Below, in pieces: positions 14,650 through 53,236 of a stretch of 53,569 nucleotides of DNA; position 1 is the first letter of the stretch, and each line of letters begins with the position of its first letter. Source of the stretch: Saprospiraceae bacterium. GTDB lineage: Bacteria; Bacteroidota; Bacteroidia; Chitinophagales; Saprospiraceae. The notes beneath the pieces are model-generated. The model worked only from the letters and a program-made list of their open reading frames with translations. It was not told the DNA's origin and did not search any database. A program made the translations under genes and the position numbers. The stretch is from NCBI GenBank assembly GCA_022844565.1, contig JALHLK010000037.1, positions 1 to 53,569 of the forward strand, given 5' to 3'.

Positions 14650-14765
14650 ATTGCCTAATTGCCCCACAGGGAATTGCCCATTGAACTCATTGCCCATTGA
14701 AATATTGCGGCTTTAGCCAATTGCCAAATTGAAATCATTGCCTCTTTGGTCTTTAGCGCTTTGGT
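14650..14765. repeat. ATTGCC/CATTGAA-rich repeat block, copy 1
   Basis: A block built from short recurring words (ATTGCCCATTGAA, GAAATCATTGCCTC, GCGGCTTTAGCCAATTG) that reappears in the same order at 22147-22270. Both copies end in GGTCTTTAGC followed by CTTTG. It has no coding capacity of its own and lies just before the first 42-43 bp array. Confidence 0.75.
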
Positions 14766-14790
14766 TGTTTCGCATTCGCGCATTAAGTAT

Positions 14791-15680
14791 TAGCATTTGG
14801 AGTAGCCTCGCAAGGTTTTGTAGTGGTTCTGAATAGCATTTGGAGTAGCTTCGCAAGGTTTTGCTCGGTTTTGACTAACATTAGGAGTAGCCTCGCAAGG
14901 TTTTGTAGTGGTTCTGAATAGCATTTGGAGTAGCCTCGCAAGGTTTTGTAGTGGTTCTGAATAGCGTTTGGAGTAGCCTCGCAAGGTTGATTTTGGTTCT
15001 GAATAGCATTTAATGTAGTCTCGCAAGGTTTTGCTCGGTTCTGAATAGCATTTAATGTAGCCTCGCAAGGTTTTGCTCGGTTCTGAATAGCATTTGGAGT
15101 AGCCTCGCAAGGTTTTGTAGTGGTTCTGAATAGCATTTGGAGTAGCTTCGCAAGGTTTTGCTCGGTTTTGACTAACATTAGGAGTAGCCTCGCAAGGTTT
15201 TGTAGTGGTTCTGAATAGCATTTGGAGTAGCCTCGCAAGGTTTTGTAGTGGTTCTGAATAGCGTTTGGAGTAGCCTCGCAAGGTTGATTTTGGTTCTGAA
15301 TAGCATTTAATGTAGCCTCGCAAGGTTTTGCTCGGTTCTGAATAGCATTTAATGTAGCCTCGCAAGGTTTTGCTCGGTTCTGAATAGCATTTGGAGTAGC
15401 CTCGCAAGGTTTTGTAGTGGTTCTGAATAGCGTTTGGAGTAGCCTCGCAAGGTTGATTTTGGTTCTGAATAGCATTTAATGTAGCTTCGCAAGGTTTTGC
15501 TCGGTTTTGAGTAACATTTGGAGTAGCCTCGCAAGGTTTTGTAGTGGTTCTGAATAGCATTTGGAGTAGCCTCGCAAGGTTTTGTAGTGGTTCTGAATAG
15601 CATTTGGAGTAGCCTCGCAAGGTTGATTTTGGTTCTGAATAGCATTTGGAGTAGCCTCGCAAGGTTTTGCTCGGTTCCTT
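14791..15680. repeat. Tandem array of 21 units, 42-43 bp period
   Basis: Twenty-one head-to-tail units, each starting TAGCATTT (or TAACATT) and sharing the core GTAGCCTCGCAAGGTT and the tail GGTTCTGAA. Units differ mainly in two slots: GGA or AAT after the TTT, and TTTGTAGT, TTTGCTC or GATTTT after AAGGTT. Units with TTTGTAGT are 43 bp; the others are 42 bp. Units 1-7 (14791-15087) and 8-14 (15088-15384) are the same seven-unit block with one base change. The spacers are not unique, so this is not CRISPR. Long minus-strand open frames here are products of the repeat and are not counted as genes. Confidence 0.97.
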
Positions 15681-15684
15681 CGTT

Positions 15685-15708
15685 ATCGAGTGAAATCTTT
15701 CACTCGAT
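15685..15708. repeat. Perfect palindrome closing array 1
   Basis: An 11-bp stem with a 2-nt loop (ATCGAGTGAAA, TC, TTTCACTCGAT) placed immediately after the last array unit. An equivalent palindrome of different sequence stands at the same place after array 2 (18531-18552). There is no T-run, so it is not an ordinary terminator. Confidence 0.9.
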
Positions 15709-15870
15709 TTGCTCCTCACGTCGCAACCACTCAGTCATCTTGCATTTTCGCTTTCTTACATTCTCAACTTTATATACCAATCACAACGAATAACATACAA
15801 GTTACACAAAATTATATGTATGATTTTATATCCTATTATTAGATTTGATAAGATTATATTATTATTTTTA

Positions 15871-15898
15871 TTGGACAAAACAAGATATAATATATTTG
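15871..15898 (+). promoter_or_regulatory. Probable Bacteroidota-type promoter for the EF-G paralogue
   Basis: A TATATTTG box at 15891-15898 matches the TAnnTTTG -7 element, with a TTG at 15871-15873 about 17 bp upstream serving as a -33 element. Transcription would start near 15905, some 18 bp ahead of the ATG at 15923. Based on consensus only. Confidence 0.5.
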
Positions 15899-15922
15899 TT
15901 AAATCATTAAAAGTAATGTAAC

Positions 15923-18049
15923 ATGTTAAAAACAGAGAATATTCGAAACATTGTTTTTATGGGTCATTCTGGAAGTGGCAAAACTAGTCTTGCAGAGACT
16001 ATGCTATTTGAATCTGGCTCTATTTCGAGGAAAGGAACGGTTGTAGATGGTACAACGGTTTCTGACTATACCTCAATTGAAAGGGAAAGAGGCAGCTCTA
16101 TTTTTTCTACCATGATGCATGTACATTGGAGGAATAATAAGATCAATATGATAGATACTCCAGGGTCAGATGACTTTGTGGGAGAAGTAATTAGTGCTTT
16201 AAAAGTGGCAGATACTGCCCTGATGGTGGTCAATGCTGCACATGGTATAGAGGTTGGAACAGAAATATTATGGGAATACACAGAAAATTTTCATACTCCT
16301 TGTGTTTTTGTTTTTAATCAAATAGATCATGAAAAAAGTAATTATCAAGAGACTTTAGAACAAGCTATTAATCGATTTGGGTCGAAAGTTATTCCTTTTC
16401 AATATCCTGTGAATGAAGGCATAGGTTTTAATGCGATCATAGATGCTTTGAGAATGGTGATGTATGTGTTTCCAAGTGGTGGTGGAAAACCAATTAAGGA
16501 ACAAATCCCTGTAAACGAATTGGAAAAAGCTAAAGATTTGCACAATACCATCGTAGAAGCTGCTGCTGAAAATGATGAAACTTTGATGGATAGATATTTT
16601 GAGCTAGGGACTCTTTCAGAGGAGGAATTAACAAAAGGTCTGCGGATAGCACTCGCTAATCAACAAATTTTTCCTGTGTTTTGTGTAAGTGCTACAAGTA
16701 ATATGGGTACAGGTAGGTTAATGGGTTTTCTAAATGATGTAGCACCATCGCCTGCAGATCGACCAGCTGCACGATTAGAAGATGGTGGAACATTATCACC
16801 CAACGCCTCTGACCCCAATACCACCATTTTTACATTTAAAACCACAACAGAACCTCAAGTCGGAATGGTCTCCTACTTCAAAGTGTATAACGGTACCATC
16901 AAAAATGGAGATGACCTTATCAACATGGACCATCAGCACCAAGAAAGAATCAATCAACTCTTTGTTACTGAGGGGAAAAACCGAACAGCCGTCAATAGTA
17001 TAATTGCTGGAGATCTCGGAGTGGTTGTAAAGCTCAAAGACACTCACACCAATGAAACCATGACCACCAAAGGATGCAAATACGAAATCGAAAAGATAAA
17101 ATGGCCCGAATCTCGTATCCGTACCGCTGTAGTCCCTCCAAGCAAAAATGACATGGAAAAGCTTATCAAAGCCTTACAACAGATACACGAAGAAGATCCA
17201 ACCTTGATACTTGAACAAAATGCACAATTCAAACAGCTTATCATACACGGACAAGGTCAATTGCACCTCGACATCATTAAGTATCGCATAGAAACCGTAA
17301 ATGGTATACACATGGAATTTATCAAACCCAAGATAGCTTACATGGAGACCATTACCAAAAGTGCTGATGAAATGTATCGACATAAAAAACAGTCAGGAGG
17401 AGCGGGACAATTTGGAGAAGTACACATGCGTATCGAGCCTTATTATGAAGGAATGCCGGACCCCGCAGGTCTTACCGTAAGAAGTAAGGAAGTAGAAGAT
17501 TTGGATTGGGGTGGTCATTTAGCATTTTATTGGTGTATCGTAGGAGGTACGGTAGATGCGAAATACATCAATGCTATAAAAAAAGGTATCATGTCTAAAA
17601 TGAACGCAGGTCCACTTACTGGGTCTCAATGCCAAAATATTAGAGTCTCTGTATACGATGGTAAAATGCACCCTGTAGACTCAAATGATATGGCCTTTAT
17701 GCTTGCCTCGACCAATGCTTTTAAAAATGCCTTTAAAAATGCAAATCCACAAATTCTTGAGCCTATTTACGAATTAACCGTCCTTTGTAATGACGCAGTA
17801 ATGGGTGATGTAATGGGGGACCTACAAACAAGAAGAGCGAGCATTACAGGTATGGGAGCTGATGGACACTACCAAAAGATTACCGCCAAGGTGCCTCAAG
17901 CAGAAATGTATCAATATTCATCTACTTTACGTGCGATCACGCAAGGAAAAGCCAAATTTTCTCGCCATTTTCTCGAGTATGCACCTGTTCCACCTGATGT
18001 CCAGAAAAAATTGATTGCGGAGCATCAGGAAGAAATGATTGATTCATAA
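15923..18049 (+). CDS. EF-G paralogue (EF-G2-like translation factor)
   Basis: A 708-residue EF-G-type protein with all five domains. The P-loop is GHSGSGKT (14-21). Switch I reads RERGSSI where canonical EF-G has ERGITI, and G3 is DTPGSDDF (78-85) instead of DTPGHVDF, so the histidine that promotes GTP hydrolysis is replaced by Ser82. G4 is NQID (132-135) instead of NKMD. Domain II begins near 300, and the C-terminal part retains FGEVHMRIEPYYEG and a family-typical end. It resembles the second EF-G copies of Bacteroidota; the Bacteroides EF-G2 has been reported to act without GTPase activity. It is probably not the housekeeping fusA. It stands alone between two related repeat arrays, with no str-operon neighbours. 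Confidence 0.9.
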   Translation: MLKTENIRNIVFMGHSGSGKTSLAETMLFESGSISRKGTVVDGTTVSDYTSIERERGSSIFSTMMHVHWRNNKINMIDTPGSDDFVGEVISALKVADTALMVVNAAHGIEVGTEILWEYTENFHTPCVFVFNQIDHEKSNYQETLEQAINRFGSKVIPFQYPVNEGIGFNAIIDALRMVMYVFPSGGGKPIKEQIPVNELEKAKDLHNTIVEAAAENDETLMDRYFELGTLSEEELTKGLRIALANQQIFPVFCVSATSNMGTGRLMGFLNDVAPSPADRPAARLEDGGTLSPNASDPNTTIFTFKTTTEPQVGMVSYFKVYNGTIKNGDDLINMDHQHQERINQLFVTEGKNRTAVNSIIAGDLGVVVKLKDTHTNETMTTKGCKYEIEKIKWPESRIRTAVVPPSKNDMEKLIKALQQIHEEDPTLILEQNAQFKQLIIHGQGQLHLDIIKYRIETVNGIHMEFIKPKIAYMETITKSADEMYRHKKQSGGAGQFGEVHMRIEPYYEGMPDPAGLTVRSKEVEDLDWGGHLAFYWCIVGGTVDAKYINAIKKGIMSKMNAGPLTGSQCQNIRVSVYDGKMHPVDSNDMAFMLASTNAFKNAFKNANPQILEPIYELTVLCNDAVMGDVMGDLQTRRASITGMGADGHYQKITAKVPQAEMYQYSSTLRAITQGKAKFSRHFLEYAPVPPDVQKKLIAEHQEEMIDS

Positions 18050-18318
18050 ATGAAAATGATATTATATGATAAACAGGTCGTACCTACGTCATTCATATAT
18101 GCTTTGTTGTATTTGCCACGGATGGAAATCCGAGGTTTCAAGATTGTACCGAGCATATGGCTCTAGGTGCTAAAAAATACAAAGCATCCAACAAACAGAG
18201 ATTAAAATCATCGTTTACAAGAGTTTAGAGAGGCTATGGCACTAATGTACCTAAAAGATGGGTAGTATAGGTAATTATTAGTATTCTCGCATTCATTATT
18301 CTCTCGTTCAATAAATAT
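18050..18318. other. Gap between EF-G paralogue and second array
   Basis: No gene is supported. A small hairpin (CGGAT, GGAA, ATCCG) lies at 18119-18132 in a segment that reads like a worn palindromic repeat. Bases 18287-18318 carry CGCATTC and ATTAGCATTT-like leader words that also precede the first array. Confidence 0.4.
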
Positions 18319-18530
18319 TAGCATTTGTAGTAGCCTAGCAAGGTTTATTTGGTTTTGATAGCATTTGTAGTAGCCTCGCAAAGTTGATTTTAGTTTTGAC
18401 TAACATTTGAAGTAGCCTCGTAAGGTTGATTTTGGCTTTGATTAGCATTTATAGTAGCCTCACAAAGTTGATTTTGGTTATGAATAGCATTTGGAGTAGC
18501 CTCGCAAGGTTTTGCTCGGTTCCCTCATTA
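18319..18530. repeat. Second, degenerate array of the same 42-bp unit
   Basis: Five units in the same orientation as array 1 (starts at 18319, 18359, 18401, 18443 and 18485). The first four carry substitutions in the core, for example CCTAGCAAGG, CCTCGTAAGG and CCTCACAAAG. The fifth is identical to the last unit of array 1 through TTTGCTCGGTTCC. It is older or less homogenised than array 1. Confidence 0.93.
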
Positions 18531-18552
18531 TTTTGATAAATTTTTATCAAAA
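18531..18552. repeat. Perfect palindrome closing array 2
   Basis: A 10-bp stem with a 2-nt loop (TTTTGATAAA, TT, TTTATCAAAA) at the same place and with the same geometry as the palindrome after array 1, but of unrelated sequence. It is followed by a near-perfect tandem duplication of about 28 bp (18546-18602, containing ATTGCTACGCATCATTCGGT) and then a run of GCATTATT repeats (about 18640-18675). Confidence 0.85.
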
Positions 18553-18678
18553 TTGCTACGCATCATTCGGTCATATCAAAATTGCTACGCATCATTCGGT
18601 CATCTCGCATTCAATCATTCAAGCATTGTCGCATTGTCGCATTATTGCATTATTGCATTATTGCATTATTGCATTAAA

Positions 18679-22146: not shown

Positions 22147-22270
22147 GGAATTACCCATTGAACCCAATGCCCATTGCGGCTTTAGCCAATTGACCATTGA
22201 AATCATTGCCCTTTTGCCCCGTGGGGAATTGCCCATTGAAATCATTGCCTCATTGGTCTTTAGCACTTTG
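22147..22270. repeat. ATTGCC/CATTGAA-rich repeat block, copy 2
   Basis: Second copy of the block at 14650-14765 with the same word order: ACCCATTGAA, then GCGGCTTTAGCCAATTG, then GGGAATTGCCCATTGAA, then ATCATTGCCTC, then GGTCTTTAGC. It is followed by CATTCAATCATTCAAGCATT, which also occurs after array 2 near 18610. Confidence 0.75.
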
Positions 22271-50134: not shown

Positions 50135-53100
50135 ATGAAATATTTGGTCTTTATAATGCTTTTTTGCTTTCACAATCTTTTTTCACAGACAATGAAATTA
50201 GATACGATTCAATATGTTGGTGATAGCGAGCATACGTATGATTTGGTAATTCTTGGAGAGGGATACACAGAATCGGAAATTCCTAAATTTAAAGAAGATG
50301 CAAAGAAGGTAAAAGATATATTTTTAAGAAATGATATTTTTTCGAGACTTCTACCAAAGATGAATATTTTTTCTATTGGCACGATATCTCAACAATCCGG
50401 AATAAGTTTAAGGACAAGCTCACCACTGCCTACTGATCCAATTCAGATACAAAATATAAAAAATACTTTTTTTGGAGTTTATTTTCTTAACTCGTTCAGA
50501 GCTTATTACTTAGATGATTCGTCGACATATAAAGCAAGAAATTTGGCCTCAGAGTATCTTCCTTTTTCGGATAATGTCTTGATCATTACCAATGATGAAG
50601 ATCACAGTTCGGGCCGCGCTTCTTTTAAAGGTGTAGCACTGGCCACAAGGTATAAAAGTACAGATTCACTTTGGTCAAATTACCTTGTCAATCACGAACT
50701 TGCTCATTCAATAGGAAATCTGGCTGATGAATATTATGAGGGAAAAGAAATAAGTTTTAATAAAGATATAACCAATGACTCTACAAAAATCAGATGGAAA
50801 GACTTGCTTCATTTACCTGATGTTGGGATTGACTCTATTGCTACAGGTATTTATATACCAAATCGAAATTGTATGATGGCATATGGAGCTGGTCGCTACA
50901 CTTGTCCTGTTTGCAGCAAAAGGCTTAAAGAGGTTGTAGAAGAACCTAAAAAACTGGGAAATCCTCACCGAATTGTTTTAGAAAAATACGATAAAGATAA
51001 AAAAACAATGAAGTATAGATGGGATCCGGTACCTGGGGCAACTGGTTATGAAGTCATTTTTTGGGCCTCATGGCGGAGTGGTTTTATTGTAAAAAATACA
51101 GATACTGACAATGTCACGTTCGAATTAAGTGAAGCAGACAATATGGCTTTACCTTCTTGGAGAGTAACAATACAAATAAGAGCTTACAATTCGACGTTGA
51201 GTTCTCAATTTGAATATTACAATACAAGTATTTATGCCCATACCACATTATCAATACCAGTGGTAAAAGAAACAAAAAAAGTTTCAGAAACCAGCTACAA
51301 GCTTTTTATAGAAAGTAAAGACAAAGCTGTAAAAGTAAATTGGTTAAGGCTCTATAATGAAGAAGGTATTCATTCTGATATTCTCACTTACAAAGATTCC
51401 ATTACTTTACATAATTTAAAGAAAGGTAAAAAATATTTCTATCAAATTGCCGCAGCTATTCCGGAAGAAAGTAGTGATTTTTTTGCAAGTCCATTTTCTA
51501 CAAAATTGCCTCTTATTGACTTATGTGCTATAGGACCTAAGCAATTATCAAGTGAGCGATTTGAGTATTGTTTGAATGCAAATACCCAACCTTTACCGAT
51601 CAAAGCTGACGAAGGGAATACTTTGCTTTGGTACTTAACAGACACAAGTACAACGGCAAGTTTGATACCTCCAGTTATTTCTTCCACTAAATCTGGATCT
51701 AGTTTTTATTATGTTAGTCAGACTAATGCTCAAGGTTGTGAGGGTTTAAAAGCAACTATCGAAATTAAAATTAATAACCCTCCAGCAGTACCAATAGTAG
51801 AAAATAAAGAATATTGCCAAAATGCAACTCCTTTGCCCCTAAACGCAACCGCTAATCCAGGAAATCAAATTTTGTGGTATACTTCTGTTACCTCCAACAC
51901 AGGAAGTACCCAAGCTCCATCAGTTACGACAGCTATTCCAGGAACTACACAGTATTTCGTAAGTCAAAAAAGTCAACAAGGATGTGAGAGTTTAAAAGCA
52001 ACTTTAGAAATTAAAATTAATAACCCTCCAGCAGTACCAATAGTAGAAAATAAAGAGTATTGCCAAAATGCAACTCCTTTGCCCTTAAACGTAACAGCTA
52101 ATCCTGGAAATCAAATTTGGTGGTATACTTCTTTTACCTCCAATACAGGAAGTACCCAAGCTCCCTCAGTTACAACAGCAAATCCTGGAACCACACAGCA
52201 TTTCGTAAGTCAAAAAAGTCAAAAAGGATGTGAGAGTCAAAGAGTTTCTTTAAATATACAAGTAGTGCCTAATCCTATGACACCTGTCTCTGAAAACCTT
52301 GACATATGCCAATATGCTGCGTTGGTCCCTTTAAAAGTGAATTTTGATAGCAACAATGAATTGAGATGGTATCAGACAATTAATTCCACCATTAGTAGTA
52401 ATGTGACTCCTTCGTATTCAACCAAAGTATATGGTATACCAATAACGTATTATGTTAGTCAGAGAAGTAAGTTAGGATGTGAAAGCTCAAAAGCGACATT
52501 AGTTATCAATGTAAAATACACTCCAGAAGCTCCTTTCGTATACCATCAAAAAGAATTATGCCAAAACGATGAAGATGTTAGACCTTTAAGAGTAGATCAC
52601 AATCCTACAAGCAAAATATTGTGGTACACAGATACAACCAAGGCAGGATCTTCTCAAATTCCAGTAATCTCCTCTAATCAGGCAGGAAAATACCGATTTT
52701 TTGTAACGGAAACGGCTAATACTGGTTGTGAAAGTGCCAAAACTGAAATCAATATTAATATTAAGCCTGCTCCACCTGCACCCTCTCTTTCTATTGTAAA
52801 TAATATGGAGATTCAATCTAGTGCCAAGACTAATTTTTGGTATTGGAATAATATAGGAATAGCCGACACAACTCAGGTTATTAAACCAAAATTCTCGGGA
52901 AATTACACTGCAGAAGCTGTTGTTGACAGGTGCAAAAGTAAAAAAAGTGAGGCTTTGAATTTTATGATTACTTCTTTGGAGGAAGAATTGTTGAATAAAT
53001 TTACTATAAAACCAAATCCAACTGAAGATTATATTACGCTTGATTTTTCTATCATTGAGTCAAGACATGTTAAAGTAGATTTAGTAGCATTTACTGGAGA

Positions 53101-53236
53101 AATTGTTAGTACTTACGCAGATTTAGATTCTGGTAGCAAGTTATATGTAGGTGATTTACCAAAAGGAGTATATTTTCTGAAGATTTATTTAAAATCACAT
53201 GATATGGTTGTAACTAAGAAGTTGGTGAAGATTTAG
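50135..53236 (+). CDS. T9SS-secreted M64 family metallopeptidase with Ig-like repeats
   Basis: A 1033-residue secreted protein. After the signal peptide (about 1-18) is an M64 (IgA-peptidase type) zinc peptidase (about 20-270): DLVILGEGYTESEIPKFKED, NVLIITNDEDHSSGRASFKG, and the zinc motif NHELAHSIGNLADEY (His187, Glu188, His191). A fibronectin-III-like region (about 280-460) follows, then at least five Ig-like modules of about 82 residues, each with EYCQNATPLPL-, LWYT- and VSQKS-type blocks. The end is a Por sorting domain (IKPNPTEDYITLDF, LPKGVYFLKIYL). Two adjacent modules (DNA 51776-52021 and 52022-52267) are nearly identical. It degrades unknown proteins at the cell surface or outside. 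Confidence 0.93.
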   Translation: MKYLVFIMLFCFHNLFSQTMKLDTIQYVGDSEHTYDLVILGEGYTESEIPKFKEDAKKVKDIFLRNDIFSRLLPKMNIFSIGTISQQSGISLRTSSPLPTDPIQIQNIKNTFFGVYFLNSFRAYYLDDSSTYKARNLASEYLPFSDNVLIITNDEDHSSGRASFKGVALATRYKSTDSLWSNYLVNHELAHSIGNLADEYYEGKEISFNKDITNDSTKIRWKDLLHLPDVGIDSIATGIYIPNRNCMMAYGAGRYTCPVCSKRLKEVVEEPKKLGNPHRIVLEKYDKDKKTMKYRWDPVPGATGYEVIFWASWRSGFIVKNTDTDNVTFELSEADNMALPSWRVTIQIRAYNSTLSSQFEYYNTSIYAHTTLSIPVVKETKKVSETSYKLFIESKDKAVKVNWLRLYNEEGIHSDILTYKDSITLHNLKKGKKYFYQIAAAIPEESSDFFASPFSTKLPLIDLCAIGPKQLSSERFEYCLNANTQPLPIKADEGNTLLWYLTDTSTTASLIPPVISSTKSGSSFYYVSQTNAQGCEGLKATIEIKINNPPAVPIVENKEYCQNATPLPLNATANPGNQILWYTSVTSNTGSTQAPSVTTAIPGTTQYFVSQKSQQGCESLKATLEIKINNPPAVPIVENKEYCQNATPLPLNVTANPGNQIWWYTSFTSNTGSTQAPSVTTANPGTTQHFVSQKSQKGCESQRVSLNIQVVPNPMTPVSENLDICQYAALVPLKVNFDSNNELRWYQTINSTISSNVTPSYSTKVYGIPITYYVSQRSKLGCESSKATLVINVKYTPEAPFVYHQKELCQNDEDVRPLRVDHNPTSKILWYTDTTKAGSSQIPVISSNQAGKYRFFVTETANTGCESAKTEININIKPAPPAPSLSIVNNMEIQSSAKTNFWYWNNIGIADTTQVIKPKFSGNYTAEAVVDRCKSKKSEALNFMITSLEEELLNKFTIKPNPTEDYITLDFSIIESRHVKVDLVAFTGEIVSTYADLDSGSKLYVGDLPKGVYFLKIYLKSHDMVVTKKLVKI

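Follow-up and report, generated by a model that had tools for sequence, protein, structure and literature searches.

The stretch of DNA analysed here, referred to as the window, comprises 53,569 nucleotides of a contig (JALHLK010000037.1) from a Saprospiraceae bacterium, a member of a family that is common in wastewater. Within it, a single gene for an EF-G2-type elongation factor lies between two tandem arrays of a 42-43 bp unit. The first-pass annotation of the window had described 21 and 5 units in the same orientation, each array ending in the same last unit and a closing palindrome, and had proposed that they are protein-binding sites resembling iterons or centromeres. With Tandem Repeats Finder (TRF) and a scan for the core of the unit, we confirmed this arrangement: both arrays run in one orientation, share the last unit TTTTGCTCGGTTCC with a palindrome behind it, and bracket the one gene. 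The arrays are not special to the EF-G gene; they are two copies of a repeat scattered through the genome. Each consists of a head of ~80-90 nt on the minus strand of the window, with three hairpins (hairpins A, B and C), and a tail formed by the array. The features are listed below, together with matches to a covariance model of the head with 63 positions (R1).

14771..14777 (+), CGCATTC word of a flanking GCATT[CG] word repeat (sequence reading)
14791..15677 (-), array 1, tail on the 3' side of head 1, with 21 units of 42-43 bp (core scan; TRF period 42 bp, 20.9 copies, and an additional 297-bp period, three copies)
15650..15738 (-), head 1, ATGACTGAGTGG and three hairpins (R1 match 15654-15716 (-), 88.7 bits)
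15709..15726 (-), head 1 hairpin A, TTGC...GCAA (alignment, folding)
15685..15708 (-), head 1 hairpin B, perfect palindromic arms, ATCGAGTGAA-AGAT-TTCACTCGAT
15655..15674 (-), head 1 hairpin C, CC-GA-GCAA-AACC-TTGC-GA-GG, with the core of the array units as its 3' half
15923..18049 (+), EF-G2-type elongation factor gene, outside the element (bystander)
18288..18294 (+), CGCATTC word preceding array 2
18319..18511 (-), array 2, five diverged units, tail of head 2 (core scan; TRF period 42 bp, 4.7 copies)
18495..18574 (-), head 2, ATGACCGAATGA and three hairpins (R1 match 18499-18561 (-), 84.4 bits)
18554..18562 (-), head 2 hairpin A, TGC-GTA-GCA
18530..18553 (-), head 2 hairpin B, ATTTTGATAA-AAAT-TTATCAAAAT
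18500..18519 (-), head 2 hairpin C
18545..18603 (-), 29-bp tandem duplication (TRF, 2.0 copies) covering the 5' half of head 2 (ATGAC through the left arm of hairpin B)

The head reads, in order, TGACYGAnTGG, hairpin A (TTGC...GCAA or TGCGTAGCA), hairpin B with arms of 10 bp, a purine-rich linker AAnGAnGGAA, and hairpin C, which in the subfamily of the window has the form CC-GA-GCAA-AANC-TTGC-GA-GG. An array unit corresponds to hairpin C and ~22 nt of its 3' flank. The core, CCTCGCAAGG, taken in the annotation for an imperfect palindrome, is one half of hairpin C and is no palindrome by itself. Clusters of cores were found 21 times in the genome, two of them in the window, and since 18 of the 21 end in TTTTGCTCGGTTCC and the palindrome, the end with the closing palindrome is the constant part of the element. 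At one locus (L014) the palindrome behind TTTTGCTCGGTTCC is truncated. The clusters lacking the standard end were a single core (L012), dropped as a chance match, one cluster at L013 without a head, and a degenerate one (L018). The annotation had proposed a check for recurrence, and both the core scan and the covariance model found arrays with the constant closing palindrome throughout the genome.

Of 19 clusters, 10 have GCATT[CG] words in the 120 bp preceding the array and 12 have them behind the head; in this and the spacing analysis below, the first L013 cluster (units without a head) fell below the filter. Their density near the clusters was 6.1 per kb on one strand and zero on the other, and ~0.5 per kb further off. 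The CGCATTC word that had been noted before both arrays is indeed present at each, as a part of this flanking word repeat. The ends of the heads differ among genomes, and no terminal inverted repeat is conserved between copies. The RNA folds of heads 1 and 2, unlike those of two other heads (L024 and L119), are closed by an outer helix; a closed multibranch RNA fold with this helix was not used.

The element is present in many copies. The 16-base core, with up to two mismatches, gave 74 matches in the genome vs three for a reversed-pattern control, an excess well beyond chance. R1 gave 57 matches at E<=1, of which 42 were full-length with at least 35 bits and were distributed over 25 contigs. 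Among 150 genomes of the family, our own included, 20 had a match at E<=0.01, with 31 matches in the relative G017, 20 in G173, 19 in G013, 12 in G104 and 9 in G003. A broader model (R2), applied with strict filters to 395 genomes of the phylum, found matches in four, all from the same family; as R2 scored only 13 candidates per genome, this is weak evidence for absence outside the family. A scan of a species-genome collection with a single exact hairpin C pattern identified six contigs of metagenome-assembled genomes (MAGs), four labelled Saprospiraceae and two labelled uncultured Bacteroidetes, and the same exact pattern was not found in viral contigs. Searches of plasmid and phage collections with array 1 and head 1 (blastn) gave no match. 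Most of the genomes are fragmented MAGs, whose assemblies break at repeats; the E-values of the models are rough and the copies of the head are not independent. The alignments examined, as well as the tests of inverted flanks, tandem repeats and the GT[AG]G foot described below, cover the heads at the loci fetched, a subset of the matches.

Covarying stems are usually taken as proof of a functional RNA. In an alignment of 55 heads, 99.0% of the cells were paired, with hairpins B and C pairing almost completely and showing compensatory changes, and 276 cells were changed on both sides. These figures are inflated, since the rows include related copies and had been aligned by fitting them to the model. 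Shuffling gave a mean of 72 doubly changed cells and in none of 500 trials as many as observed, and pairing fell to 26.5-47.7% when the partners were slid. An ungapped MAFFT alignment of 14 rows concurred, with 99.6% paired and 36 doubly changed cells vs 14. RNAs tolerate G-U pairs; a DNA palindrome does not. Hairpin B contained three G-T and two A-C pairs among 539 cells in the 55 heads, and 10 G-T and seven A-C among 963 cells in all 127 matches. The tRNAs of the same genome, an imperfect control in that their stems carry some conserved G-U pairs, contained 56 G-T among 665 stem pairs (31 tRNAs). As hairpin B is nearly devoid of G-T pairs, we infer that DNA, rather than RNA, is the molecule whose folding is kept. 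When folded as DNA, the two strands behaved alike (z of -2.85 and -3.32; -2.66 and -3.18).

In the tails, 51 adjacent spacings of 36-48 bp were measured in the genome: 34 were 42 bp and 10 were 43 bp, as the annotation had it, and the remainder departed from its 42-43 bp range (four at 44, two at 41 and one at 40 bp). Tails at dispersed loci have 1 to 21 units of 40-44 bp, with 66-142 bp at one locus (L011). In array 1, eight of the 21 units keep the arm of hairpin C; in the other 13 one of two different sequences has taken its place, so that most units no longer form the hairpin. Internal unit types are common to different loci, which suggests that short tails travelled with the heads. Tandem repeats are concentrated at heads in general. 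TRF arrays with a period of at least 10 bp overlapped a head or lay within 60 bp of it at 27 of 86 head positions, in seven genomes, and tandem coverage was 14.8% within 100 bp of heads vs 1.8% beyond 500 bp; these counts include a CRISPR-like (clustered regularly interspaced short palindromic repeats) array at locus L113, with periods of 76-152. The periods were 41-44, 29, 37, 16, 24, 126 and 142 bp at heads of the same genome, and 15 (also 21, 54 and 55) in G017, 23 in G003, 76 in G066, 82 in G175 and 135 bp in G013 and G110 at heads of relatives. Some duplications have a common end at the left arm of hairpin B, with 29 bp in the window (18545-18603), L006 and L010 and with 37 bp in L007. 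From this clustering we infer that the hairpins provoke slippage or unequal recombination.

The surroundings of the heads bear possible marks of movement. Seven heads (one each in G001, G002, G003, G017 and G173, two in G146) have an RHS (rearrangement hotspot) core downstream, within ~210 nt. These cores lack the first 12-39 profile positions; six score above the NCBIfam cut-off and one (L119) below. At L019 an RHS-like stretch ends the frame that precedes the head, and at the other loci the interruption is our reading of the alignment. A second subfamily in the same genome lies inside a dispersed hairpin repeat, GTCTTGATACAAAAGAACCAAAAAATCAAGGC, which is also found empty, in 12 exact copies. 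In the filled copies (L106-L112 and L114, with a degenerate ninth, L118) the head stands in place of AAAAGAA; compared with the empty repeat, the loop is replaced. At L006 one head occupies the hairpin B loop of an older one, the two halves of which lie on either side. At L113 (G000:C17, ~44.6 kb; G000 is our genome) a head is located at the first repeat of the CRISPR-like array, with a second, degenerate head at the same end. That array has a 46-bp repeat (GTTGTGAATTGC...CCACAAC) with spacers of ~30 bp, for which TRF gave a period of 76 and 11.6 copies. Five G017 loci (L127, L128, L130, L136 and L137) carry heads inside a longer, structured-looking repeat, gcgtgagggatagcagcgatatgaac...gaatacaagcggatagcccg, which had no Rfam match in L128, L130 and L136. 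In two genera (L084 in G110, L091 in G170) a 5' fragment of tRNA-Asp stands before a head, on whose other side part of that tRNA recurs in inverted form; next comes an intact tRNA-Asp in L084, and in L091 the beginning of a tRNA-Asp that the contig end interrupts. In G113 the heads form chains.

A link of the arrays to the EF-G paralogue was not supported. Orthologues of EF-G2 with 72-77% identity were found in five other genomes of the genus, at six loci (one orthologue is split over two contigs), and none of these loci carried a head, the best scores being 13.8 bits (E 0.066) and 9.7 bits (E 0.86). The neighbours of the locus in the window are a kojibiose-hydrolase gene and a UvrD-like helicase/nuclease gene; tblastn with the two gave no match in the flanks of the orthologues, some of which are cut by contig ends. 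The pairing of EF-G2 and a head is lineage-specific and probably accidental.

Taking these results together, we consider it probable that the arrays are variable tails, each attached to a separate copy of a palindromic DNA element, dispersed and non-autonomous, of the REP/MITE kind (repetitive extragenic palindrome; miniature inverted-repeat transposable element) of Saprospiraceae, whose position beside EF-G2 is incidental. Some enzyme would copy or move the heads while they are folded as single-stranded DNA, as may happen on the lagging strand. The perfection of the arms may be kept by this copying process or by templated hairpin repair, with a DNA-acting enzyme as an alternative keeper of the folding, and slippage or unequal recombination starting from the hairpins may have multiplied the 42-bp units. 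A number of results weigh against such an element, apart from the limits of the alignment and of the tRNA control given above. We found no mobilising gene among Y1 transposase loci or clustered neighbouring open reading frames (ORFs). Of 50 matches to Y1 transposases in 12 genomes, 31 loci were fetched (three overlap each other), and none contained a head at E<=0.1; G017, with its 31 head matches, had no Y1 match, and Y1 transposases were accordingly rejected as the mobiliser. Four Y1 loci showed motifs like those of REP-associated tyrosine transposases (RAYTs), and the six loci searched for words of the head held one lone TGACTGA (L180). Clustering of neighbouring ORFs of at least 80 aa by blastp gave one cluster of at least three loci, all in G017, and no autonomous copy, in a search insensitive enough to have missed the known RHS fragments as well. 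No target-site duplication was established from the flanks, as inspected without a formal direct-repeat test. Inverted flanks were shorter than 8 bp in 33 of 40 heads, so that insertion into loops, which seems to occur at some loci, is not shown to be general, and inverted flanks as a general rule are not supported. Further points on this side concern RNA: own heads favour the 3' side of co-oriented genes, hairpin C has more G-T than A-C pairs, as expected of RNA, and RNA folding is stronger for the minus than for the plus strand (z of -3.75 vs -2.38; -2.00 vs -1.67).

These last points would be expected if the head were a structured RNA of 3' untranslated regions (a terminator, mRNA stabiliser or RNase site) spread by copying, with a tail that is protein-bound or neutral, an explanation we regard as unlikely. 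At 31 loci of the same genome outside the window, heads lay between convergent genes in 11 cases and between two genes co-oriented with the head in 12, with both neighbours opposed in three, none divergent and five incomplete (ORFs of at least 80 aa). With ORFs of at least 100 aa, a co-oriented gene was present 5' of the head in 25 of 33, and for 23 of these genes the distance from the stop to the model start was 10-146 nt; at L023 a head follows the gene for ribosomal protein S1. Four heads fold as RNA with z from -2.00 to -4.55, and the array-1 tail somewhat better than shuffles (z -2.06, 20 shuffles, a weak result). In hairpin C, G-T exceeded A-C pairs, with seven vs two in 326 cells, most of the seven at the loop-closing pair, and 15 vs five in 557, which leaves some room for RNA. 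In hairpin B, however, G-T is as rare as A-C, unlike in tRNA. The context pattern resembles that reported for REPs and does not by itself require a terminator, and at 49 loci of other genomes, viewed with ~1-1.5 kb of flank on each side, there was no preference (eight with both neighbours co-oriented, eight both opposed, four convergent, eight divergent, 21 incomplete); head 1 of the window itself is an exception, lying between divergent genes. No T run directly follows hairpin B or C in the alignments, and heads also stand beside the truncated RHS cores. An Rfam scan of the window at gathering thresholds gave no match and no tRNA genes were found within it, while nine loci scanned permissively gave one tRNA and a sub-threshold snoRNA match only. 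A more far-reaching version of the mobile element is that the heads are self-spreading DNA hairpin modules which insert into the loops of existing hairpins, copied as single-stranded DNA by an enzyme other than the known RAYTs, and so build nested or concatenated chains; the proposed targets would be the heads themselves, other repeats, and further sites such as tRNA or CRISPR repeats. The nesting at L006, the filled and empty repeat, the tRNA-Asp fold-backs, the chains in G113, the covariation of hairpin B almost free of G-T intermediates and the 11-bp inverted flanks at L086 speak for it, and inverted flanks of at least 10 bp occurred in three of 40 heads (one a T/A run) vs 0.5% of 1438 mismatched flank pairs. 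With the 33 heads that lack an inverted flank of 8 bp, we hold both this mechanism and its list of targets to be rather doubtful.

That the 42-bp arrays are protein-binding sites (iteron, centromere-like or for a nucleoid protein) with helical phasing and an accessory palindrome would agree with the 34 of 51 spacings of exactly 42 bp, about four turns, and with the core half of the unit, which by eye is less variable than the other. The part that is conserved and covaries is, however, the palindromic head and not the array, and paired changes of letters are not what a conserved binding site would show. The wide range of own tail lengths, with the 66-142 bp of L011, does not fit either; 13 of the 21 units of array 1 are without one arm of hairpin C, other heads have tandem periods of 15-142 bp, and in the alignments examined heads from other genomes had no 42-bp tail. 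We therefore find binding sites a highly improbable main explanation, and the annotation's interpretation as a whole is partly supported. A coding minisatellite for a repeat protein on the minus strand could be imagined from the ORFs of 309 and 230 aa that run through array 1 on that strand, 42 bp being 14 codons. With 17 of the 51 spacings at 40, 41, 43 or 44 bp any single frame is broken, and shorter tails elsewhere lie mostly between ORFs; this reading was rejected, and we give it almost no credence. A CRISPR array was likewise rejected, in agreement with the annotation: the units abut without unique spacers, and their variable half is common to units and loci.

Among known systems, the nearest precedent found is BrickBuilt, a MITE of Porphyromonas gingivalis, also of the Bacteroidota. 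In the available excerpts of its description (PMC4596501), BrickBuilt is dispersed, with 19 copies in one strain, always intergenic, and carries a spacer-free 23-bp minisatellite between a leader and a tail, as well as terminal inverted repeats like those of the IS5 family. The present element shares the phylum and the combination of dispersal with a tandem array whose copy number varies. It differs in its sequence, in having three internal hairpins at one end and an array at one end only, and in that no conserved terminal inverted repeats were seen, because of which it is not a textbook MITE.

REPs, in the parts of the reports at hand (PMC3733652, PMC6006769), are short multi-copy palindromes that lie mostly between convergent or co-directional genes near the 3' end of the upstream one, and sometimes inside genes; 'atypical secondary structures' are reported there for RAYT subclass 2.6 of Bacteroidetes. 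The element resembles them as a dispersed, multi-copy, mostly extragenic palindrome (the 42 own heads of at least 35 bits) and differs in having three hairpins instead of one. A GT[AG]G foot, on hairpin C and on the strand opposite the head, was present in 15 of 72 heads, 13 of 24 in the subfamily of the window and two of 48 elsewhere. As the foot is not conserved and copies do not flank Y1 genes, we do not file the element as a REP. The annotation's statement that the arrays do not match REPs stands for the strict REP tag and is otherwise too strong, since the element behaves as a dispersed palindrome of the REP/MITE type. CGTC-tagged REPs, as excerpted from PMC3733652, are palindromes without an associated transposase gene, with Bacteroidetes among their phyla, and have a single stem of 8-9 bp, a CGTC tag and a CCA-like tail; the aligned heads, by eye, have three hairpins and no CGTC tag. 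The TAACTGA repeats of Beggiatoaceae and some Bacteroidetes are short direct heptamers, for which the excerpt of PMC4679880 describes no hairpins. No description of the present element was found in the literature on palindromic, intergenic and tandem repeats of Bacteroidetes and Saprospiraceae, judged by titles and abstract openings, and within this survey we rate it as a variant of REP/MITE-like repeats not described before.

That a head with 276 doubly changed cells is nearly without G-T in its main stem points to DNA as the molecule that is selected or copied. The scarcity of G-T suggests a simple test for distinguishing mobile DNA hairpins from RNAs in Rfam-like screens. The element is also a natural example of hairpins that appear to seed minisatellites, with several periods and across several genomes. 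Loop insertion, if confirmed, would suggest a mobilising activity in Saprospiraceae that has not been described.

The RNA family Acido-Lenti-1 (RF01687) is similar in having a hairpin, a conserved linker and a hairpin, and many copies in some genomes of the family. It differs in its consensus and in having two hairpins, and did not match the heads in the loci scanned. One match (L105:1857-1902) lies ~300 nt from a head. In 41 genomes, Acido-Lenti-1 had matches at E<=0.001 in 11 and over the cut-off in six, with 14-49 matches each in G007, G013, G017, G019 and G022 and none in our genome. Among the matches listed, about 10 formed minus/plus pairs 121-165 bp apart, such as G007:C1:91198- with 91332+ and C41:79183- with 79316+, and one pair had the other order. 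The pairs are REPIN-like, and the Acido-Lenti-1 family may be a mobile DNA hairpin rather than a small RNA.

Elsewhere in the window, low-complexity intergenic words occur at 14660-14740 and 22155-22264 (CCATTGAAATCATTG-like) and at 18623-18676 (GCATTATT, 6.8 copies), and resemble the GCATT[CG] words that flank heads. At 51731-52237 there is a 246-bp tandem duplication (92% match, 2.1 copies) within a gene (50135-53236) that has a type IX secretion system (T9SS) sorting domain at its end.

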